Shown: in pieces, positions 18,445 to 29,854 of the stretch
Layout of the letters: each line of letters starts with the position of its first letter
How positions within the stretch are numbered: the first letter of the stretch is position 1
Assembly (NCBI GenBank): GCA_029027985.1
Contig: CP119076.1
Location: forward strand, 1,426,001-1,490,000
DNA from: Klebsiella aerogenes
Lineage (GTDB): Bacteria; Pseudomonadota; Gammaproteobacteria; Enterobacterales; Enterobacteriaceae
Direction: 5' to 3'
Length of the DNA stretch: 64,000 nt
Position numbers and translations under genes: made by a program
Notes under the pieces: model-generated
The model's database searches: none
What the model was told of the DNA's origin: nothing
Seen by the model: the letters and a program-made list of their open reading frames with translations, nothing else

Positions 18445-18477
18445 GCGTTGGGATGTAGCTTAACGAGGAAAAGACGT

Positions 18478-19995
18478 ATGTGCGGTATTGTCGGTATCGC
18501 CGGTGTTATGCCGGTAAACCAGTCGATTTATGACGCGTTAACGGTGCTTCAGCATCGTGGGCAGGATGCCGCGGGCATCATCACCATTGATGCGAATAAC
18601 TGCTTCCGTTTGCGTAAAGCTAACGGACTGGTGAGCGATGTGTTCGAAGCGCGCCACATGCAGCGTATGCAGGGAAATATGGGGATTGGCCACGTTCGTT
18701 ACCCAACGGCGGGCAGTTCCAGCGCTTCTGAAGCGCAGCCTTTTTACGTTAACTCGCCGTACGGCATTACGTTGGCCCACAATGGCAACCTGACGAATGC
18801 CCATGAGCTGCGTCAAAAGCTGTTTGAAGAAAAACGCCGCCACATCAACACCACCTCCGATTCCGAAATCCTGCTTAACATCTTTGCCAGCGAGCTGGAT
18901 AATTTCCGTCATTACCCGCTGGAAGCCGATAACATCTTCGCCGCGATCGCCGCGACGAACCGCCAGATCCGCGGCGCATATGCCTGCGTGGCGATGATTA
19001 TCGGTCACGGTATGGTTGCCTTCCGCGATCCGAACGGTATTCGCCCGCTGGTGCTCGGCAAACGCGATATCGGCGATGGCCGCACCGAGTATATGGTGGC
19101 CTCCGAAAGCGTGGCGCTGGATACGCTGGGCTTTGAATTCCTGCGTGATGTCGCGCCGGGCGAAGCGGTGTATATCACCGAGAAAGGCCAGCTGTTTACC
19201 CGCCAGTGTGCGGAAAACCCGGTCAGCAACCCGTGTCTGTTCGAATACGTCTATTTCGCGCGTCCGGATTCCTTCATCGACAAGATTTCCGTCTACAGCG
19301 CCCGCGTGAATATGGGCACTAAGCTTGGCGAGAAAATTGCCCGCGAGTGGGAAGATCTGGATATCGACGTGGTCATTCCGATCCCGGAAACCTCTTGTGA
19401 TATCGCGTTGGAAATCGCCCGTATCCTCGATAAGCCGTACCGTCAGGGGTTCGTTAAAAACCGCTACGTTGGCCGCACCTTCATCATGCCGGGCCAGCAT
19501 CTGCGCCGTAAATCGGTGCGCCGCAAGCTGAACGCCAACCGCGCTGAATTCCGTGGTAAGAATGTGCTGCTGGTGGACGATTCCATCGTTCGTGGCACGA
19601 CCTCTGAACAGATTATCGAAATGGCGCGCGAAGCCGGGGCGAAGAAGGTGTATCTGGCCTCTGCGGCGCCGGAAATTCGCTTCCCTAACGTTTACGGCAT
19701 CGATATGCCGACGGCGAATGAGCTGATTGCCCATGGCCGTGAAGTTGACGAGATCCGCCAGATCATTGGCGCTGACGGTCTGATTTTCCAGGATCTGGAC
19801 GATTTGATTGACGCGGTACGCGCAGAGAACCCGGATATTCAGCAGTTCGAGTGCTCGGTCTTTAACGGCGTATACGTCACGAAAGACGTTGACCAGCAGT
19901 ATCTTGATTATCTCGATTCCCTGCGTAACGACGACGCGAAAGCGGTTCAGCTGCAAACCGAAGTCGAAAACTTAGAGATGCACAACGAAGGTTAA
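18478..19995 (+). CDS. purF: Amidophosphoribosyltransferase
   Basis: First committed step of purine synthesis: PRPP plus glutamine to 5-phosphoribosylamine. A 505-residue class II glutamine amidotransferase. The nucleophile is Cys2, exposed after removal of Met1 ([10 protein letters not shown]), and the PRPP loop is [14 protein letters not shown]. The ATG at 18478 is required to place Cys2 at the N-terminus; an upstream start at 18448 is excluded on that ground. RBS is ACGAGGAAAAG. Confidence 0.98.
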
Positions 19996-20004
19996 GTCCC
20001 GTCA

Positions 20005-20030
20005 CTGAGCTCACCGCAGGGTGGGCTCAG
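20005..20030. terminator. Convergent hairpin between purF and the sigma-54 activator gene
   Basis: CTGAGC (20005-20010) pairs with GCTCAG (20025-20030), with inner CAC/GTG pairs. It overlaps the stop codon (20027-20029) of the minus-strand regulator and has no T tract. It marks the left edge of the accessory cluster. Confidence 0.5.
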
Positions 20031-21451
20031 TAGCTGACCACGCCAAAGCGAATCGCGTATTTCTGTACTTTGTACTGCAAGGTAGTCCGCGAAACGTTCA
20101 GACTGCGTGCCGCTGCGGCAATGTTGCCTCCGGCATGATTCAGCGCTGTCTCGATCACTCCTTTTTCAAACTGTTGCACTCGCTGTTCCAGTGAGCCCAC
20201 CATTTCCGGCGTATCCTCAAGGGGAGAAGCGGCAAGCGGTGCTGCAATGGTGCGCAATTCCTGTCCCTCTTCCTCGAAAATAATCTTCCGCAGCGGGCCA
20301 TCTTCCTCCTGCATCACCATACTGCGGACGATGGCGTTCTCCAGCATCCTGACGTTACCCGGCCAGCTGTGGGTCATGATTTCAATTCTGGCGTTTTCGC
20401 TCAGCCCCTGAATGTCCTGCAGTGCGTCATCGCGGTGTTTGTCGATGAAGTAGTTCGCCAGCAGCGGGATGTCTTCCGTGCGTTTGCTTAGCGGCGGCAG
20501 CAACAGCATGCCCACGCACAGGCGATAGAACAGGTCGGTTCTCAGCTTTCCCTGAGCAATCAACGCCGTCGGCGCTTCGTTCATGGCCGCGATGATACGC
20601 ACGTCAGAGCGCTGCTGCTGTTGCCCGCCGAGCTTCCAGTAGGTTTTATCCTGTAAAAATCTCAGCAGCTTGCTCTGCATTTCTGCCGGCATCGCATTCA
20701 TTTCATCAAGAAACAGGGTTCCGCCGTTGGCGAGCTCCAGATACCCCTGGCTGTTTTCCGCCCCGGTATAGGCACCGCGCACGGTACCAAAAAGCGTGCT
20801 CTCGATAAGGGTGGCGGGAAGCGCGCCACAGTTCAGGGCGATAAAGGGCTTTTCGGCCCGGCGGCTGTACTGATGGATAAGTTTGGCAAACAGCTCCTTG
20901 CCGGTGCCCGTTTCGCCGACAATCATCACCGGCACCTGGCTTGCTGCCAGCCGTTTCCCTTTTTCAATACAGTCGAGCATCAGCGGGCTTTCGGTGACAA
21001 TTGCAGGCCGGGTTTCACGATCGGCGGTATAGAGCAGGCGGTTAAGCTCCACCACCTGTTCCTGCAAACGTCGGACGCCAGACATATTGCGGCCAATCTC
21101 AATGGCGCCCATCACTTCACCGTTAGCCGAGTAGAGCGGGGCGGTGGTGTGTTGATAATCGACGGCCTGGCCGCGAGCATTGTAGTAAATCTGGTAGTGC
21201 CCGATGTACTCCACGCCAGTTTTTAGCGAGGACAACATCGTACTTTGCGTCTCTTTCATCGCCGGGTAGACGTCCAGCATATGTCTGCCCAGCGCCTGCT
21301 CAATGCTGTAGCCATCCAGCTCGGCGCTTTCCTGGTTGTAATAAACGTATTCTCCGCGCGTGTTAATCACCGCCAGCGGCTGGTGGATCAAATCGAAAAA
21401 GCGGGAAAAAATATTCAGCGCCTGGCTGAGCTCAGACTCCGGTGACTTCAT
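20027..21451 (-). CDS. Sigma-54-dependent activator, PAS-AAA+-Fis (RocR-like)
   Basis: A 474-residue enhancer-binding protein. Domains: PAS-type sensor (about 12-130), AAA+ ATPase (about 150-380) with Walker A GETGTGKE (179-186), Walker B GGTLFLDE (243-250) and arginine-finger region GKLRTDLFYRL, then a Fis-type helix-turn-helix (about 443-463, NIAAAARSLNVSRTTLQYKV). There is no receiver domain, so control is probably by a ligand. The sigma-54 contact loop reads GAYTGA (226-231) instead of GAFTGA. The local pattern ESTLFGTVRGAYTGAE resembles RocR, the activator of arginine/ornithine catabolism. It is divergent from the decarboxylase gene, with a -24/-12 promoter between them. I believe the Salmonella counterpart is STM2361. 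Confidence 0.9.
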   Translation of the reverse strand: MKSPESELSQALNIFSRFFDLIHQPLAVINTRGEYVYYNQESAELDGYSIEQALGRHMLDVYPAMKETQSTMLSSLKTGVEYIGHYQIYYNARGQAVDYQHTTAPLYSANGEVMGAIEIGRNMSGVRRLQEQVVELNRLLYTADRETRPAIVTESPLMLDCIEKGKRLAASQVPVMIVGETGTGKELFAKLIHQYSRRAEKPFIALNCGALPATLIESTLFGTVRGAYTGAENSQGYLELANGGTLFLDEMNAMPAEMQSKLLRFLQDKTYWKLGGQQQQRSDVRIIAAMNEAPTALIAQGKLRTDLFYRLCVGMLLLPPLSKRTEDIPLLANYFIDKHRDDALQDIQGLSENARIEIMTHSWPGNVRMLENAIVRSMVMQEEDGPLRKIIFEEEGQELRTIAAPLAASPLEDTPEMVGSLEQRVQQFEKGVIETALNHAGGNIAAAARSLNVSRTTLQYKVQKYAIRFGVVSY

Positions 21452-21492
21452 GATGATTCCCTTTTATGTCTCGTCTAATCCGAGTGTAAGGA

Positions 21493-21508
21493 CGACGAAT
21501 TTTCGTCG
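21493..21508. promoter_or_regulatory. Candidate activator-binding palindrome 1
   Basis: CGACGAATTTTCGTCG has perfect 6-base arms with a 4-base centre. It lies about 97 bases upstream of the -24 GG of the decarboxylase promoter, a usual distance for an enhancer-binding protein site. Assignment is inference. Confidence 0.45.
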
Positions 21509-21540
21509 CAGTGATGAAAATCTCACTTAATGATGAAAAT

Positions 21541-21560
21541 AATAAAATCATGATTTTATT
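21541..21560. promoter_or_regulatory. Candidate activator-binding palindrome 2
   Basis: AATAAAATCATGATTTTATT is a perfect 20-base palindrome, about 50 bases upstream of the -24 element. GATGAAAAT occurs twice just upstream (21513-21521 and 21532-21540). It could be a second activator site, an IHF-like bending region, or part of the regulator's own promoter. Confidence 0.4.
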
Positions 21561-21588
21561 AACTTATTGATAATTAATGATTTTAACA

Positions 21589-21605
21589 TTGGCATGTCCA
21601 TTGCT
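21589..21605 (+). promoter_or_regulatory. Sigma-54 (-24/-12) promoter of the decarboxylase operon
   Basis: TTGGCATGTCCATTGCT matches the sigma-54 consensus YTGGCACGRNNNTTGCW at all but two positions. The invariant GG (21591-21592) and GC (21603-21604) are 12 apart. The predicted start of transcription is near 21616, 35 bases before the decarboxylase ATG. It lies beside a divergent sigma-54 activator gene. Confidence 0.88.
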
Positions 21606-21650
21606 TTATCAGGGTTACTCCATCCTGATAACCAAAAAGCAGAGGGATTT

Positions 21651-23045
21651 ATGTCAGACATCGAAAGCAAAAATTATAATCAGCAGCGCCAGCAGCTGGC
21701 CCACGACCGCCGTTTCCAGTTCAGGGACAATCAGCTCTGTTTTGAGCAAATAAGCCTGGATGCCTTAGCCCGCAAATATCCGACGCCGTTTTATGTGTTT
21801 TCTGAGCCGGAAATCATCCGCAACATCGGCGAAATTCAGCAGGCCTTTGCCGCGCACAAGAAAACAAAGACCTTCTTTGCCTCCAAAACCTGCTCGGTTA
21901 TGGGCGTGCTGAAAGCTATCCGCGATGCCGGAATTTGTGCTGAAGCGAATTCGCAGTTTGAAGTGCGCAAGTGCCTGGAAATAGGTTTTCGCGGCGATCA
22001 GATTGTGTTTAACGGCGTGGTGAAAAAACCGGAAGATCTGGAATTCGCCATCGCGAACGATCTGTATCTGATTAACGTCGACAGCCTTTACGAGCTGGAC
22101 CACATCGACAGCATTTCCCGCAAATTACAGAAAGTGGCGAATGTCTGTGTTCGCGTGGAGCCCAATGTGCCTTCCGCCACCCACGCTGAGCTGGTTACCG
22201 CATTCCATGCAAAATCTGGTCTCGATCTCGAGCAGGCGGAAGAAACCTGTCGGCGGATCCTCGATATGCCATATGTACATTTACGCGGTCTGCATATGCA
22301 CGTTGGGGATCAGGTTCCGGAGGCTGAACCTTTCGCCAAAGCCACCAAAGTGCTGGTCGACGAGTCACGCCGTCTGGAAGAGGTGCTGGGGATTAAATTC
22401 GATCTCATTAACGTCGGCGGCGGGATCCCGGTTGCCTATAAGTACGATGAGCAAAACGGCGATCCGCTGAAAGACAACATGTATGCCGGGATCACCGCGC
22501 AGGATTTCGCCGATGCGGTCATCAATGAAGTGCATAAATGGCGGACCGATGTGGAGATCTGCATTGAGCCAGGCCGTAAGGTGACAGGCTCTGCGGCCGT
22601 GCTGCTGACCGAAGTGTCCTGCGAAAAGCGTAAAACGAATTACGACGTTGATGGCAATGTCGAATGCCACGTCGAGTGGAAGTTCGTCGATGCCGGTTAC
22701 AGCGTGCTCTCGGACAGCCAGCATTTTGACTGGTTCTTCTACGTCTATAACGCTTCCAGAATTAATGAATCCCACGACAGCTATATCAAACTGGCAGGCC
22801 CGCTTTGCGACGGCGGCGATTATTTCCATATGGGCGTCAAAGGCGAAGAATTTTTAATGCCCGCAGATACGGCAATTGGTGATGTCGTCGCCTTCCTCGA
22901 TGCCGGGGCTTATACCATCGAAAGCCAGACCGTCTATAACAACCGGCCGCGTACGGCGGTTGTGATGATTGATAAAGATGGCAATGACCGACTGATTCGC
23001 CGGGAAGATACCTACGAAGATATGGTCAAGTACGACATCTATTGA
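21651..23045 (+). CDS. dokD: Fold-III PLP decarboxylase, probably D-ornithine/D-lysine decarboxylase
   Basis: A 464-residue group IV (LysA-like) PLP decarboxylase. Visible: PLP lysine in FFASKTCSV (K79), HMHVGDQ (215-221), glycine loop GGGIPV (256-261), EPGRK (306-310), CDGGDYF (C386, D387) and GAY (419-421). It differs from housekeeping LysA in several motifs (FFASK for YAxKA, HVGDQ for HIGSQ). I recall that the Salmonella gene in this position, STM2360, encodes a D-ornithine/D-lysine decarboxylase (DokD) giving putrescine and cadaverine. Position, sigma-54 control and the neighbouring racemase support the same call here. Start ATG 21651 follows AGAGGG; an upstream frame from 21567 would run through the promoter. 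Confidence 0.78.
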
Positions 23046-23056
23046 TCCTGCATTTT

Positions 23057-23087
23057 CCCTTCAGGCTGCCCGCTGCGGCCTGAAGGG
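23057..23087 (+). other. Hairpin between the decarboxylase and antiporter genes
   Basis: CCCTTCAGGC (23057-23066) pairs perfectly with GCCTGAAGGG (23078-23087). No T tract follows, so it is more likely an mRNA-stabilising or processing hairpin than a terminator. GGGCAATGATGCCC forms a second small stem at 23102-23115. Confidence 0.5.
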
Positions 23088-23140
23088 CAGTGCGTTTGCG
23101 TGGGCAATGATGCCCGTGAATGAAGGAACAGGAGAGAGCC

Positions 23141-24562
23141 ATGAGTAACAATCAGTCTGGCTTGTTGGGTATAAAAGATATTGTCTTTATGAACGTCATC
23201 GCGATCCTGAGCCTGCGGCAAATCCCGAACGTCGCCCCTTATGGTGCGTCGGCAATGCTGCTGTGGGTGATTGCCGCATTCTGTTTATTCTTTCCTCTGG
23301 CGATGGTGTGCGGGGAATTATCGACAGGCTGGCCGAAGGACGGCGGGATTTTTGTCTGGATCAAAGAGGCATTTGGTAAGCGCATCGCGTGGATTGTGGT
23401 GGTGTGCTTCCTGTTTTCCTGCGTGCTGTTCTTCCCGCTGATGCTGCAGTTCGGTTTTACCGCTCTGGGCTACATGATTGGCGGTGGGCTTGCGGAAAAT
23501 AAGGCGTTTATCGGTATTGGTTCGGCGGTGATCTTCTGGCTGCTCACGCTGATGAATATTCGTGGTCTGGAATGGACCAAAATCATCAACAGCGTCAGCG
23601 CCTGGTGTGGTGTTTTTATTCCGTCCACCATTTTAATTCTGCTGGCCGTGGTCTGGCTGCTGACCGGTCATAAAATGGCGACCGACTACAGTACCGCCAG
23701 CAACTGGATCCCGGATTTAGGGCATTGGGATACGGTGGTATTTCTTTCCAGCATGATGTTTGCCTTTGCCGGTCTTGAAGTGGCACCGATGATTGCCGGG
23801 CGTACACGCAATCCGCAGCGCGATTTTCCTCGTGCGATGGCGGTGTCGGCGGCAGTGATTGTGGGTATCTATATGGTAGGCACCTGGGCGCTCAACACGC
23901 TGTTGCCTGCGGGAAAAACGGATATCGTGGCTGGCGTGATGCAGGCTATGCACTCAGCGGCTGAGACTCTGCATATGCCATGGCTGATCCCGGTAATGGC
24001 AATCTGTATGTTCTTCGGCGCGCTCGGGCAGATTAACTCCTGGCTGGTGGGACCGATTTACATGCTGCAGGAGGCATCGCGCGAGGATAATTTGCTGGGG
24101 GATAAAATTGCGCAGCTGCATCCGGTATGGAAAACCCCCGTTTTCGCTCTGGTGGTTCAGGCTATTATCGTTACCGTACTTTGTTTCTCAACCTTTATTT
24201 CACCAAGCGTAGCTGCGGCCTACTGGATGCTGACGGCATTGACCACCATCACCTATTTCATTCCCTATCTGGTGATGTTCCCGGCGTTCTGGCGTTTACG
24301 CATCGTTCAGCCAGATACCCCAAGAAGCTTTAAAATCCCCGGAAAAATTCTGCCTGCGCTGTTACCGGTGCTTGGATTTATCTCTATCGCCTTTGCGGTG
24401 TTCCTGCTGTTTATCCCACCTTCACAAATTGATATGGGCGGCTATTTCCAGTACGCAGGGAAAATTATTGGCGGTGCGCTGTTAGCGGTGCTGGTGGCAG
24501 AGGTTATTTATCTGCGTGCGCAAAAGCGTAACGCACGTCTGAACGTGGCGGGAGAGAAATAA
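23141..24562 (+). CDS. APC-superfamily amino acid antiporter (GadC-like)
   Basis: A 473-residue inner-membrane protein with about twelve hydrophobic segments. The N-terminal region (LRQIPNVAPYGASAMLLW and CGELSTGWPKDGGIFVWIKEAFGKR) resembles the amino acid/amine antiporters of the APC superfamily, such as GadC. Antiporters of this kind often pair with a decarboxylase, taking in the amino acid and sending out the amine. That makes ornithine-or-lysine/diamine exchange the likely role, but the substrate is inferred. Start ATG 23141 after AGGAGAGAGCC. It ends one base before the racemase start. Confidence 0.82.
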   Translation: MSNNQSGLLGIKDIVFMNVIAILSLRQIPNVAPYGASAMLLWVIAAFCLFFPLAMVCGELSTGWPKDGGIFVWIKEAFGKRIAWIVVVCFLFSCVLFFPLMLQFGFTALGYMIGGGLAENKAFIGIGSAVIFWLLTLMNIRGLEWTKIINSVSAWCGVFIPSTILILLAVVWLLTGHKMATDYSTASNWIPDLGHWDTVVFLSSMMFAFAGLEVAPMIAGRTRNPQRDFPRAMAVSAAVIVGIYMVGTWALNTLLPAGKTDIVAGVMQAMHSAAETLHMPWLIPVMAICMFFGALGQINSWLVGPIYMLQEASREDNLLGDKIAQLHPVWKTPVFALVVQAIIVTVLCFSTFISPSVAAAYWMLTALTTITYFIPYLVMFPAFWRLRIVQPDTPRSFKIPGKILPALLPVLGFISIAFAVFLLFIPPSQIDMGGYFQYAGKIIGGALLAVLVAEVIYLRAQKRNARLNVAGEK

Positions 24563-24563
24563 A

Positions 24564-25667
24564 ATGTACATGCCGGTTCTGGAAATTAATTTAAAAAAAC
24601 TCAGAGAAAATGCCAGCGTTGAAAAAGAACTGCTGGAGAAATTTGGCGTTGAAGTGATGGCGGTGAATAAAGTCTTCGATGGCAATCAGGAAACCGCCCG
24701 CGCGGTGTTTGACGGTGGAATTCAGGTGATTGCCGAATCGCGAACCTACAACCTGAAGAAAATTAAAGAGATTGGCTGTACGACCTGCTTATTACGCAGC
24801 CCCTGTCTGAGCGAGATTGAGGAGGTGGTGCGATACGCCGATATCAGCCTCAACAGCGAGCCTGCCGTGATTTGTGCTTTGGCCGAAGAGGCCCAGCGGC
24901 AGGGGAAAATTCACCAGGTGCTGCTGATGGTGGACATGGGAGATCTACGTGAAGGGGTCTGGTTTATCGACTACCAGAAAATACTGTCACTGGTCTGTCT
25001 GATTGATGAACTGCCGGGGCTGGAGCTGTATGGCCTTGGAACCAACTTCAACTGTTACGGCACCGTGCTGCCAACCGTGAAAAACGGTGGGGACTTTCTC
25101 ACGCTTGCCAGACGGCTGGAACAGGACAGTGGACGGGTTATTCCCCGCCTGTCGGCCGGAAACTGCACCAGCTTCCACCTGATGGACAAAGGCATCTGGC
25201 CAAAAGGATTGGATCACCTGCGTATCGGCGGCCTGCACGAATTCGGCATCGAATATGTGGAGATGAAGTATCTCGATGAGTTTCATCATTCGCACAAACC
25301 GGTCGGCAAAGCCTGTTCGGATTTGTACGTGCTGGAAGCCGAAATTATTGAGCTCAACAGTAAACCGACGCTGCCGGTTGGTGAGCTGGGCGTCGATGCT
25401 TTTTTACAGAGTAAAACCTTTGTCGATCGTGGCGTCAGAAAACGGGCGCTGCTGGCGTTCGGCAGGCAGGACGTTCCCTGTGAAAACTGCGTGCCGGTTG
25501 ACGATGCCATTACTGTGCTGGGGCAAACCAGCGATCACACGCTGGTGGATATTGAAGCCTGCCAGCAGCCACTGAAGGTCGGGGATGTGGTGCGCTTCGA
25601 GCTCGACTATACCGGGCTGCTGATGGCCTGCCAGACGAAAGGTATTGAGCTGCGCTATATCCGCTAA
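24564..25667 (+). CDS. PLP-dependent amino acid racemase, ornithine-racemase-like
   Basis: A 367-residue alanine-racemase-fold protein (N-terminal TIM barrel, about 5-230, then a beta domain). The PLP lysine is in EVMAVNKVFDGN (K36). Motifs MVDMGDLREGVWF (122-134), GTNFNCYGTVLPTVKN (159-174), LSAGNCTSFHLMDKG (196-210) and HLRIGGLHEFG (218-228) resemble the clostridial ornithine racemase (Orr) branch rather than Alr/DadX. Next to a D-ornithine/D-lysine decarboxylase, it probably interconverts L- and D-ornithine or lysine. ATG 24564 follows GGAGAG; the ATG at 24570 is an alternative. Confidence 0.8.
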   Translation: MYMPVLEINLKKLRENASVEKELLEKFGVEVMAVNKVFDGNQETARAVFDGGIQVIAESRTYNLKKIKEIGCTTCLLRSPCLSEIEEVVRYADISLNSEPAVICALAEEAQRQGKIHQVLLMVDMGDLREGVWFIDYQKILSLVCLIDELPGLELYGLGTNFNCYGTVLPTVKNGGDFLTLARRLEQDSGRVIPRLSAGNCTSFHLMDKGIWPKGLDHLRIGGLHEFGIEYVEMKYLDEFHHSHKPVGKACSDLYVLEAEIIELNSKPTLPVGELGVDAFLQSKTFVDRGVRKRALLAFGRQDVPCENCVPVDDAITVLGQTSDHTLVDIEACQQPLKVGDVVRFELDYTGLLMACQTKGIELRYIR

Positions 25668-25673
25668 ATGTTG

Positions 25674-25698
25674 ACCCGTCCTGAGGACGGGTTTTTTT
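25674..25698 (+). terminator. Rho-independent terminator after the racemase gene
   Basis: CCCGTCC (25675-25681), TGA loop, GGACGGG (25685-25691), then seven T residues. It is strong and sits only 22 bases before the permease start, inside what otherwise looks like one operon. Confidence 0.92.
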
Positions 25699-25719
25699 AT
25701 GCACTGCCGGAGAACCACC

Positions 25720-27096
25720 ATGAGTGCGGAACAGGAAGGGATTCGTGCGCCAGCGGAAAGCGGGCTGCGACGAAGCCTAAAGAAGCGTCATCTATTGATG
25801 ATCTCTTTAGGCGGCACCATAGGAACCGGGTTGTTTGTGGGAATAGCGGAACCTCTGCACAGCGTTGGGCCTGTTGGTACGCTGCTGGCCTATTTAATTG
25901 CTGGTAGCATTATGCTGGCAACGATGATGTGTCTGGGTGAACTTGCCTGCGCTTTCCCGCACTCCGGTTCCTTTCAGCACTACGCGCTGATGTTTCTTCC
26001 TCATCCGCTCTGGAGTTACACCATCGGCTGGCTGTACTGGTTGAGCTGGGTTTTCTCGCTGGCCGCCGATCTGACGGCGGCCGGATTTCTGGCTCATGAT
26101 TACTTCCCCGCTGTTCCTGTGCACTATTTTTGCCTGATCATTCTGGTGGCCTTGACGCTGATTAACCTCTGTTCGGCCCGCAGTTTTGGCGAATGCGAAT
26201 ACTGGCTTTCGGCCATCAAAGTGTTTGCGATAGTGCTTTTTATTGCCGTTGGCTGCGTGATGCTCTTTTCCATGTCAAAAGACGCAGCCTTCCAGCCGAC
26301 GCTGAAAACTCCCTCAGGCTGGTTTCCCAACGGTCCCTGGCAGATCCTCATCTGTATGACGATTGTCATCTATTCGTTCCAGGGCGCAGAACTGGTGGGG
26401 AATGCAGCCGGAGAGTCCGAAGCGCCGCAGGCGATCCTACCAAAGGTGATCCGAGGCATTGGTGTGCGGATCATCCTTTTTTACGGCCTTGGCGTGGGGA
26501 TCCTGGCGCTGATTTATCCCTGGGGCAGGCCGCCGGATGCCGATAGTCCCTTTGTCTGGGTCTTTGCTCATGCCGGTATTCCCTGGGCGAAAACGCTGAT
26601 GACGCTGGTGATTTTCTCTGCGGCAATATCAGCGGCTAATTCGGCGATTTTCGCCAGCTCTCGCATGCTGTGGTCGATGGCGGGAGATGGTTTTGCGCCA
26701 GTCAGATTCGCGAAACTAAGCGGGACGGGAGTGCCTGTTGCAGCTATTCTGATTACGTGTGGCCTTGCTCTGGTTTCTCTGCTGACGCGCTACATTCCGG
26801 CGCAGCAGTTTTATCTGTATCTGATTGCCAGCACCGGGCAGGTGGGATGCCTTGCCTGGGCGACGATTGGCTGGTGCCAGCTGCGTTTTCGCTCTGCGGT
26901 GAAGGCCGGGCGATATCCCGGCCTGAACAGACTCTACTGTGCGCCTCTTTACCCGTGGCTACCGATAATCGTTATTACAGCTAATATTGCCATTATTATC
27001 GGCACGTGGTTCAGCGAGCATGGAGGGATTATTATGTGTATAGAGTTGTTATTAATGGCGATAGTGGCTGGCTCGTGGCGGCTGCGAACGCCCTGA
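25720..27096 (+). CDS. Amino acid permease of the APC/AAT family
   Basis: A 458-residue inner-membrane protein with about twelve hydrophobic segments. It has the AAT-family N-terminal signature KKRHLLMISLGGTIGTGLFVG, shared with LysP, GabP and AroP, then GELACAFPHSGSFQHYA. A cationic amino acid is a reasonable substrate from context but cannot be read from sequence. Start ATG 25720 after CCGGAGAACCACC. It is separated from the racemase by a strong terminator, so it needs read-through or a promoter I cannot see. Its stop lies in a palindrome. Confidence 0.82.
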   Translation: MSAEQEGIRAPAESGLRRSLKKRHLLMISLGGTIGTGLFVGIAEPLHSVGPVGTLLAYLIAGSIMLATMMCLGELACAFPHSGSFQHYALMFLPHPLWSYTIGWLYWLSWVFSLAADLTAAGFLAHDYFPAVPVHYFCLIILVALTLINLCSARSFGECEYWLSAIKVFAIVLFIAVGCVMLFSMSKDAAFQPTLKTPSGWFPNGPWQILICMTIVIYSFQGAELVGNAAGESEAPQAILPKVIRGIGVRIILFYGLGVGILALIYPWGRPPDADSPFVWVFAHAGIPWAKTLMTLVIFSAAISAANSAIFASSRMLWSMAGDGFAPVRFAKLSGTGVPVAAILITCGLALVSLLTRYIPAQQFYLYLIASTGQVGCLAWATIGWCQLRFRSAVKAGRYPGLNRLYCAPLYPWLPIIVITANIAIIIGTWFSEHGGIIMCIELLLMAIVAGSWRLRTP

Positions 27097-27157: not shown

Positions 27158-27730
27158 ATGAAACGACTGATAGTGGGGATTTCCGGAGCAAGCGGTGCGA
27201 TTTACGGCGTGCGGCTGTTGCAGGTACTGCGCGATGTTGCGGATGTCGAAACCCACCTGATAATGAGCCAGGCGGCGCGTCAGACCCTATCGCTTGAAAC
27301 CGACTACTCGCTGCGTGAAGTACAGGCGTTGGCTGATGTGGTGCATGATGCGCGCGATATCGCCGCCAGTATCTCGTCCGGCTCGTTCAAAACGACCGGG
27401 ATGGTTATCCTGCCGTGCTCGATGAAAACGCTCTCCGGCATCGTCAACAGCTATACTGACGGCCTGTTGACCCGTGCGGCGGATGTGGTGCTGAAAGAGC
27501 GTCGCCCGCTGGTGCTTTGCGTTCGCGAGACGCCATTTCACCTTGGGCACTTGCGCTTGATGGTGCAGGCGGCGGAAATGGGCGCGGTGATCATGCCGCC
27601 GGTACCGGCGTTTTATCATCGTCCGCAGAGCCTGGATGAAGTGATTAATCAGACTGTTAACCGGGTTATCGATCAGTTTGCTATTGATCTGCCGCAAGAC
27701 CTGTTTACTCGTTGGCAGGGCGCCTCGTAA
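27158..27730 (+). CDS. ubiX: Flavin prenyltransferase UbiX
   Basis: Joins dimethylallyl phosphate to FMN to make the prenylated cofactor used by UbiD in ubiquinone synthesis. A 190-residue flavoprotein with GISGASGAIYGVRLL at the N-terminus and CSMKTLSGIVNSY and RETPFHLGHLRLM in the body. In E. coli purF lies next to ubiX; here the five-gene cluster lies between them. It ends in a terminator hairpin. Confidence 0.96.
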   Translation: MKRLIVGISGASGAIYGVRLLQVLRDVADVETHLIMSQAARQTLSLETDYSLREVQALADVVHDARDIAASISSGSFKTTGMVILPCSMKTLSGIVNSYTDGLLTRAADVVLKERRPLVLCVRETPFHLGHLRLMVQAAEMGAVIMPPVPAFYHRPQSLDEVINQTVNRVIDQFAIDLPQDLFTRWQGAS

Positions 27731-28018: not shown

Positions 28019-28801
28019 ATGAAGAAGACGATCCTGGCTCTCTCGTTAATCATGGGAATCAGCAGCGCCGCCAGCGTATATGCGGCGCTGCCGCAAAGTA
28101 TCCGCATCGGCACCGATACCACCTATGCGCCTTTCTCGTCGAAGGACTCGAAGGGGAATTTTATTGGTTTTGACATCGATCTGGGCAACGAACTCTGCTC
28201 GCGCATCAAGGTGAAGTGTACCTGGGTGGGCAGTGATTTTGACGCGCTGATCCCCTCACTGAAAGCGAAGAAAATCGACGCGATCATCTCGTCGCTGTCG
28301 ATTACCGAGAAACGTCAGCAGGAGATTGCCTTTTCTGACAAGCTGTATGCGGCAGACTCCCGGTTGATCGCGGTAAAAGGCTCACCGATTCAGCCGACGC
28401 TGGAGTTGCTAAAAGGCAAACACGTCGGTGTATTGCAGGGCTCCACTCAGGAAGCTTACGCGAATGAACGCTGGCGCAGCCAGGGCGTGGACGTGATTGC
28501 CTACGCCAACCAGGATCTGATTTACTCTGACCTCGCCGCTGGCCGTCTTGATGCGGCGTTGCAGGATGAGGTCGCGGCCAGCGAAGGCTTCCTCAAACAA
28601 CCTGCCGGTAAAGATTACGCCTTTGCCGGTCCATCCGTTAAAGACAAAAAATACTTCGGCGACGGTACCGGCATTGGCCTGCGCAAAGAAGATGGCGAGC
28701 TGAAGGCCGCTTTCGACAAAGCGCTTGGCGAGATGCGTAAAGACGGCACCTACGACAAGATGGCGAAGAAGTACTTCGACTTTAACGTCTACGGCGATTA
28801 A
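28019..28801 (+). CDS. argT: Lysine/arginine/ornithine-binding periplasmic protein
   Basis: Substrate-binding protein that delivers basic amino acids to the HisQMP2 transporter. The 260-residue precursor has a signal peptide (about residues 1-22, ending SVYA) and a family 3 binding-protein fold, with [10 protein letters not shown] and the ligand region [24 protein letters not shown]. It is closely similar to hisJ downstream, a tandem duplication. Promoter of the sigma-54 type upstream. Confidence 0.95.
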
Positions 28802-28856
28802 GACTGTGGCGGCCCCGGCGCTTGTCGGGCCGCTTCGACGCAACACCGTTATTGTT

Positions 28857-28917
28857 GCCCCATTGTGATGCATGCCGTTGGCGGCTTGCGCCAGAATGGG
28901 GCGGCAGAGTTTTTTTG
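28857..28917 (+). terminator. Terminator/attenuator between argT and hisJ
   Basis: GCCCCATT (28857-28864) pairs with AATGGGGC (28895-28902), with a further GC-rich inner hairpin, and seven or more T residues follow at 28910-28917. A second stem, GCGGCCC/GGGCCGC, lies just upstream (28809-28833). It separates argT from hisJQMP and can allow unequal expression. Confidence 0.75.
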
Positions 28918-29071
28918 TTGCTCAATAAATGCATAGTTAAGCGTTTCTGATGCAAAAAAATCTGCTTTCTGACGCATTATGCTTTGCCTTGGCAGGGCGA
29001 ATAATGGCACGATAACTGGCGTAAGCGCTTCTAATAAACCCCGTTAGAATGACAGTCTGTTGAGGATAATT

Positions 29072-29854
29072 ATGAAAAAACTAGCGTTGTCTCTTTCTTT
29101 GGCGCTGGCCCTTTCCAGCGTTTCCACGGTATTCGCAGCAATCCCACAAAAAATCCGTATCGGTACGGATCCCACTTATGCGCCGTTCGAATCGAAAAAT
29201 GCGCAGGGTGAATTGGTTGGTTTTGATATCGATCTGGCGAAAGAGCTGTGTAAGCGTATCAATACGCAATGTACCTTCGTTGAGAACCCGCTGGATGCAC
29301 TGATCCCATCGTTAAAAGCGAAGAAGATCGATGCGATTATGTCATCGCTGTCGATTACCGAAAAACGCCAGCAGGAAATTGCCTTCACCGACAAACTGTA
29401 TGCCGCTGATTCTCGTCTGGTGGTGAAAAAGGGCAGCGACATTACGCCTGATCTCAGCAAGCTGAAAGGCAAGCGCATTGGCGTGCTGCAGGGCACGACT
29501 CAGGAAACCTACGGTAATGAGCACTGGGCGCCGAAAGGGATTGAAATTGTCTCCTATCAGGGGCAGGACAATATCTATTCCGACCTGACCGCAGGCCGTA
29601 TTGATGCTGCGTTCCAGGATGAAGTCGCCGCCAGCGAAGGCTTCCTCAAACAGCCGATCGGCAAGGATTACCAGTTCGGCGGCCCATCCATTAAGGATGA
29701 GAAGTTGTTCGGCGTCGGCACCGGTATGGGTCTGCGTAAAGATGACAACGAGCTGCGCGAGGCGCTGAATAAAGCTTTCGCGGAAATGCGTAAAGATGGC
29801 ACCTACGACAAGCTGGCGAAGAAATATTTCGACTTTAACGTGTACGGCGATTAA
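29072..29854 (+). CDS. hisJ: Histidine-binding periplasmic protein HisJ
   Basis: Periplasmic L-histidine receptor for HisQMP2. A 260-residue precursor with a signal peptide ([22 protein letters not shown]). The mature part starts [21 protein letters not shown], nearly identical to E. coli HisJ. The ATG at 29072, after TTGAGGATAATT, matches E. coli; an in-frame start at 29060 is not needed. It is followed by an intercistronic REP-like hairpin before hisQ. Confidence 0.96.

Follow-up and report, generated by a model that had tools for sequence, protein, structure and literature searches.

Between purF and ubiX, a 64,000-nucleotide stretch of Klebsiella aerogenes DNA (contig CP119076.1, positions 1,426,001 to 1,490,000; hereafter the window) carries five intact open reading frames which, judged by their sequences, form an ortholog of the Salmonella STM2361-2357 operon, with the same genes, in the same order and at the same place. 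They encode an enhancer-binding activator (dokR, a name coined in this analysis), a D-ornithine/D-lysine decarboxylase (dokD), a GadC-like antiporter, an ornithine-racemase-like enzyme and an amino acid permease. The divergent dokR-dokD intergenic region contains a palindrome, placed at an almost constant distance from a sigma-54 promoter, which is likely to be the DokR enhancer. Taken as a whole, the cluster is in our view probably a sigma-54 operon driven by DokR from this operator, whose products would racemise ornithine or lysine, decarboxylate the D-form and exchange the resulting diamine.

The comparison with Salmonella STM2357-STM2361 that the initial annotation had called for was run, and the same genes, order and flanks were found. 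In Salmonella Infantis the order is purF, activator, decarboxylase, APC permease, ornithine-racemase-like enzyme, permease, ubiX, argT and hisJ. The likeness covers gene content, gene order, the place from purF to ubiX-argT-hisJ and the sigma-54 promoter, and the difference is one of genus and of sequence divergence only (76.6% DNA identity; about 89% identity for the decarboxylase). Passages of a Salmonella study place STM2360-2356, ubiX included, among the sigma-54 operons and connect it with STM2361; its table value is 100 and its promoter TGGCATGCCTTTTGCTTT, and its sigma-54 dependence was shown with a promiscuous activator (PMC3844500). Passages of a 2016 review give both the enhancer site and the signal of STM2361 as "NK" (not known), and the protein as uncharacterised (PMC4987338). 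The literature searched (titles, abstracts and passages, with few subscription papers covered) yielded no description of the full system or of its operator. Most of the system is already known, and what we describe is a known operon in another genus plus an operator prediction, the palindrome being the new addition.

The predicted DokR operator and the sigma-54 promoter

Of 46 distinct intergenic regions between divergent dokR and dokD genes, 43 contain the palindrome GACGAAWWTTCGTC with at most two mismatches, a frequency which is partly by construction, as the pattern was derived from these same regions. Stronger evidence comes from the fixed spacing and from the background count. Between the centre of the palindrome and the GG of the -24 element the distance is 89-92 bp in 44/46 regions, the exceptions being two Syntrophomonas-type loci (168 and 256) in which DokR is just 42-44% identical. 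Elsewhere in the same loci, four sites with at most two mismatches were found in 393,660 positions; when the regions were shuffled, no site of this quality was obtained (0/920), and a spacing of 88-93 was obtained in nine cases out of 920. The 46 regions come from 90 loci with a DokD match of at least 50%, after removal of 16 without dokR in the stretch, three with dokR elsewhere and 25 identical copies. By our reading, 29 of them belong to a single genus (Gilliamella or its unnamed equivalent); among the 17 others, 16 have the palindrome with at most two mismatches and 15 have the fixed spacing.

The best sigma-54 element matches at least 10 of the 12 consensus positions in all 46 regions, and 11 in the window. 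Among random sequences of 300 bases, made in four compositions, such an element was present in 15, 44, 76 and 53 of 2,000. These results support the sigma-54 promoter with a divergent activator that had been read from the sequence initially. In S. Infantis, the palindrome is present with the same spacing. In Edwardsiella, the site is CGCCGAATTTTCGGCG, altered on both arms with its symmetry kept. The exact palindrome occurs only once in the 5.0-Mb genome, at the cluster. Genome matches with one mismatch were rejected as evidence, since they fall at two places (the cluster and one other), as compared to three for a reversed-pattern control. Looser GATGAA half-sites can be seen by eye beside the predicted operator, at 21513-21518 and 21532-21537.

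The position of the promoter also bears on the start of dokD. The longest decarboxylase frame begins at a TTG (21567); the true start is almost surely the ATG at 21651, because the promoter falls within the longer frame and because the alignment with the Salmonella protein begins there. With this shift, the five genes initially placed between purF and ubiX were all recovered (Table 1).

Table 1. Features of the dok cluster and its flanks (positions in the window).
Feature	Position	Strand	Description
purF	18448-19995		flanking gene
dokR	20027..21451	-	PAS-AAA+-Fis enhancer-binding protein, STM2361 ortholog; Pfam PAS, Sigma54_activat, HTH_8; divergent from dokD
Predicted DokR operator CGACGAATTTTCGTCG	21493..21508	strandless	palindrome and spacing to the -24 element
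Sigma-54 promoter TGGCATGTCCATTGCT	21590..21605	+	11/12 consensus positions; similar to the published Salmonella promoter
dokD	21651..23045	+	putative D-ornithine/D-lysine decarboxylase, fold III; NF052544; PDB 6n2h and further DOKDC entries
Antiporter gene	23120..24562	+	GadC-like, APC superfamily; TIGR03813 305.4 bits (cut-off 650); PDB GadC 4dji
Racemase-like gene	24564..25667	+	ornithine-racemase-like fold-III enzyme dependent on pyridoxal phosphate (PLP), STM2358 ortholog; NF040742 349.6 bits
Permease gene	25699..27096	+	AAT-family amino acid permease; PF00324 325.2 bits
ubiX	27158..27730	+	flanking gene; in the published Salmonella operon STM2360-2356, according to passages of PMC3844500

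The decarboxylase, the racemase-like enzyme and the transporters

The Pfam domains of the five products are PAS, sigma-54 AAA+ and Fis helix-turn-helix for the activator, a fold-III decarboxylase, two permeases of the APC superfamily and Ala_racemase_N. The dokR product stays under the curated cut-off of each of the 25 NCBIfam families listed.

The decarboxylase is predicted to be of the DokD type, active on D-ornithine and D-lysine, in agreement with its first reading. It scores 881.5 bits on the NCBI DokD equivalog NF052544 (cut-off 700) and narrowly misses the LysA model TIGR01048 (291.3 bits, cut-off 297.9), and the PDB entries that it matches best are those of D-ornithine/D-lysine decarboxylase (DOKDC), such as 6n2h, solved structures of the Salmonella enzyme being among them. 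All 15 DokD-type sequences compared have CDGGD, as against CESGD in the LysA encoded separately in the genome (28% identity to the decarboxylase), and all 15 have an Asp (Asp355 in the window protein) at the Arg of the LysA RPxxY motif. Both positions are presumably in contact with the substrate at its distal end. As DokD markers, the counterparts of Salmonella Cys387 and Tyr430 were rejected, since LysA has both. For the Salmonella enzyme, activity on D-ornithine and on D-lysine is published. Passages of a published assay of DOKDC report activity with D-ornithine, that with D-arginine being about 1% of it (PMC13294871).

The racemase-like enzyme has the fold-III (alanine racemase) fold in its predicted structure. 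This model has a mean predicted local distance difference test (pLDDT) score of 82.1, with residues 164-170, 224-240 and 269-287 below 50, and in the PDB it matches amino acid racemases best (alanine, broad-specificity and lysine racemase); two kinds of aldolase, D-threonine and beta-hydroxyaspartate, are among the 50 matches listed. By sequence search, no PDB relative was found at E <= 0.001. The protein matches the profile of the clostridial-type ornithine racemase Orr over nearly its whole length, at a score below the cut-off of 480 bits, as do three of its orthologs (353.5, 360.5 and 376.7 bits). It also differs from Orr, whose usual place is ornithine fermentation, by its linkage to a decarboxylase. 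In the 2017 study of the Salmonella decarboxylase, ornithine racemase activity was reportedly found for STM2358.

The antiporter misses a second GadC model as well (NF053662, 278.1 bits, cut-off 640) and matches the PDB GadC structure 4dji with an E value of 3.7e-39. The cluster resembles the GadC glutamate/GABA (gamma-aminobutyrate) systems in that a decarboxylase adjoins an APC antiporter, but differs from them by the antiporter's scores, by a fold-III decarboxylase predicted to be D-specific and by sigma-54 control. The permease reaches no equivalog cut-off. Both transporters would presumably take up ornithine (or lysine), and the antiporter would carry diamines as well. In one Veillonellaceae metagenome-assembled genome, a locus (L060, 5438-10803) has the order antiporter, racemase, dokD and then a PotE-type antiporter, neither dokR nor the AAT permease being found in the stretch. 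On one NCBI model for putrescine-ornithine antiporters, the PotE-type protein scores 589.6 bits, above the cut-off of 409, and on a second one it falls short (533.3 versus 560). Its position beside dokD in this single locus, as read from sequence, points to ornithine and putrescine. The proposed net reaction, from ornithine to putrescine with exchange, is that of SpeF-PotE; SpeF is a fold-I, L-specific enzyme, whereas the dok cluster has a racemase and a putative D-specific enzyme.

Distribution of the cluster

As expected from the initial annotation, no DNA match to the cluster was found in 20,395 E. coli records, whether the query was all 7,070 bases (megablast) or 3,950 of them (sensitive blastn). 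That the search worked is shown by a neighbouring stretch with ubiX, which was detected in 5,375 of the 5,426 genomes of E. coli. With a threshold of E <= 1e-100 and the own genome counted, dokD is present in 27/394 sampled genomes of the order (3/115 genera), in 10/392 of the family (7/154 genera) and in 2/20 of the genus. Within the genus, purF and ubiX adjoin each other in 12 genomes out of 20, are separated by this cluster in two and by other DNA in six. In two of these six (L112 and L121), a gene which reads as a LacI-type regulator adjoins ubiX.

When species genomes were scanned, 51 dokD loci were obtained, 25 of them from Gilliamella. All five genes occur together in 37 of the 51, or in 14 of 26 when Gilliamella is left out, which agrees with the co-occurrence initially predicted. 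Partial sets are found in three loci, two lacking dokR only and one having only the antiporter and the racemase besides dokD; two loci (L075 and L078) begin inside dokD, and their upstream genes lie outside the view. Both purF and ubiX flank five of the 51 loci, and purF alone flanks one more. Neither gene was found in the available stretch of the full-set loci of Gilliamella, Edwardsiella, Mixta, Sutterella, Photobacterium and the Syntrophomonas type, and the set therefore travels, or is kept, as one unit. That the cluster is local to one species was rejected, as further families and phyla have it too. A second arrangement, in Photobacterium and in one genome of the order (L097 and L067), has dokR at the opposite end and convergent with the operon; there the antiporter and the permease are more distant (54% and 45% identity).

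The DokD-like proteins of Aquitalea (L070-L074 and L079) are 55-57% identical and are encoded without the other four genes. One of them (L070) passes the DokD model with 755.3 bits, and a LysR-type regulator gene lies beside its gene. Two Desulfobacterium genomes have relatives of the racemase at 36-38%. All these results show that the Salmonella operon, itself partly studied, has counterparts in a broad but patchy range of bacteria, most of them associated with hosts.

The proposed cycle and its alternatives

In the reading that we favour, a signal would be sensed by the PAS domain of DokR, which would bind the palindrome about 90 bp upstream of the -24 element and drive sigma-54 transcription of dokD and the antiporter, racemase and permease genes. 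The permease and the antiporter would import ornithine (or lysine), the racemase would convert the L-form into the D-form, DokD would decarboxylate the latter to putrescine (or cadaverine), and the antiporter would exchange the diamine for new substrate, so that each turn would remove one internal proton and make one diamine. The sigma-54 control and the DokD activity come from the Salmonella work; orthology, gene set and the predicted geometry of promoter and operator come from the present analysis. What the transporters carry, which way the racemase runs in the cell, what induces the operon and what it serves for are inferred by us. The cycle of uptake, racemisation and antiport put forward in the initial annotation is plausible; its later steps may proceed as described, and acid tolerance could be among its purposes. 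The other parts of that interpretation, namely the sigma-54 promoter and activator, the identity of DokD, the co-occurrence of the genes and their absence from E. coli, stood up to analysis. Its claim of a largely undescribed system did not, as the Salmonella sigma-54 operon is published and its decarboxylase has been solved and assayed.

Several observations weigh against this cycle. The racemase and the antiporter remain under the curated cut-offs for Orr and GadC, and dokD stands with none of the other four genes in 11 of the 51 loci. A dok-type racemase was found in none of four Aquitalea genomes, nor in one Oxalobacteraceae genome, and DokD can therefore work without such a racemase. Four fold-I decarboxylases encoded in the genome exceed the PF01276 cut-off; the operon is therefore no obvious necessity, nor the sole possible source of diamines. 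Passages of a paper citing 2017 and 2019 work hold D-ornithine decarboxylase unlikely to serve polyamine metabolism (PMC7857480), a point against polyamine supply as the purpose, and a premature stop in STM2361 is mentioned for some Salmonella isolates in passages of another (PMC11256474). In the main alternative, environmental D-ornithine and D-lysine would be imported for catabolic scavenging, DokD would degrade them and the racemase would mainly return D-forms to the L-pool, the purpose being nitrogen and carbon supply instead of acid tolerance or polyamine supply. Sigma-54 control often accompanies nitrogen or carbon use, Aquitalea encodes a DokD-like protein that passes the model without such a racemase, and diamines could be supplied by the fold-I decarboxylases. 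Linkage of the decarboxylase to a GadC-like antiporter resembles, however, amino acid/amine exchange, in which carbon is not retained, and a PotE-type putrescine-ornithine antiporter adjoins dokD in the Veillonellaceae locus. We consider scavenging possible, though rather unlikely.

Two other alternatives concern single elements of the cluster. The palindrome might serve the expression of dokR itself, or be the site of another regulator: a divergent intergenic position could serve either gene, binding by DokR is a prediction, the palindrome is unclear in four loci with a non-divergent dokR (L061, L062, L067 and L097), and the spacing differs in the two Syntrophomonas-type loci. This we find improbable, as the spacing to the sigma-54 promoter is fixed whereas that to dokR ranges between 28 and 98 nt (19 Enterobacterales regions), and as the symmetry is kept in Edwardsiella despite changes on both arms. 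The decarboxylase might also be a variant diaminopimelate decarboxylase, in a cluster serving lysine or cell-wall metabolism, given its near miss of the LysA model and a Brenneria relative that passes both models (LysA, 313.2 bits; DokD, 862.3 bits). The score far above the DokD cut-off, the replacement of CES by CDG and of Arg by Asp and the separate LysA make this very improbable; a preference for meso-diaminopimelate, a result that the initial annotation considered contrary to its own reading, was rejected on model scores and residues, which are those expected of DokD.

If DokR binds the palindrome, it becomes possible to look for the signal to which its PAS domain responds, telling L-ornithine, D-ornithine, lysine or acid apart, and a precise predicted operator is offered for testing. 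More speculatively, and with considerable doubt, the cluster could be a stereochemically insulated proton/polyamine module, whose D-route would escape feedback and competition on the L-ornithine and L-lysine pools, and whose single, fixed-spacing enhancer would have travelled with it among Enterobacteriaceae, bee-gut Gilliamella, Edwardsiella and others.

As to the surroundings, S. Infantis has argT and hisJ after ubiX, and two adjoining frames 3' of ubiX in the window (28019-29854) resemble these two genes. In Salmonella, argT counts among the sigma-54 genes according to passages of the 2016 review (PMC4987338). Finally, the cluster is also present in three Salmonella records that are filed as plasmids and measure about 500 kb; in the one that was opened (L133), purF, argT and hisJ are also present, and it may be a piece of chromosome.

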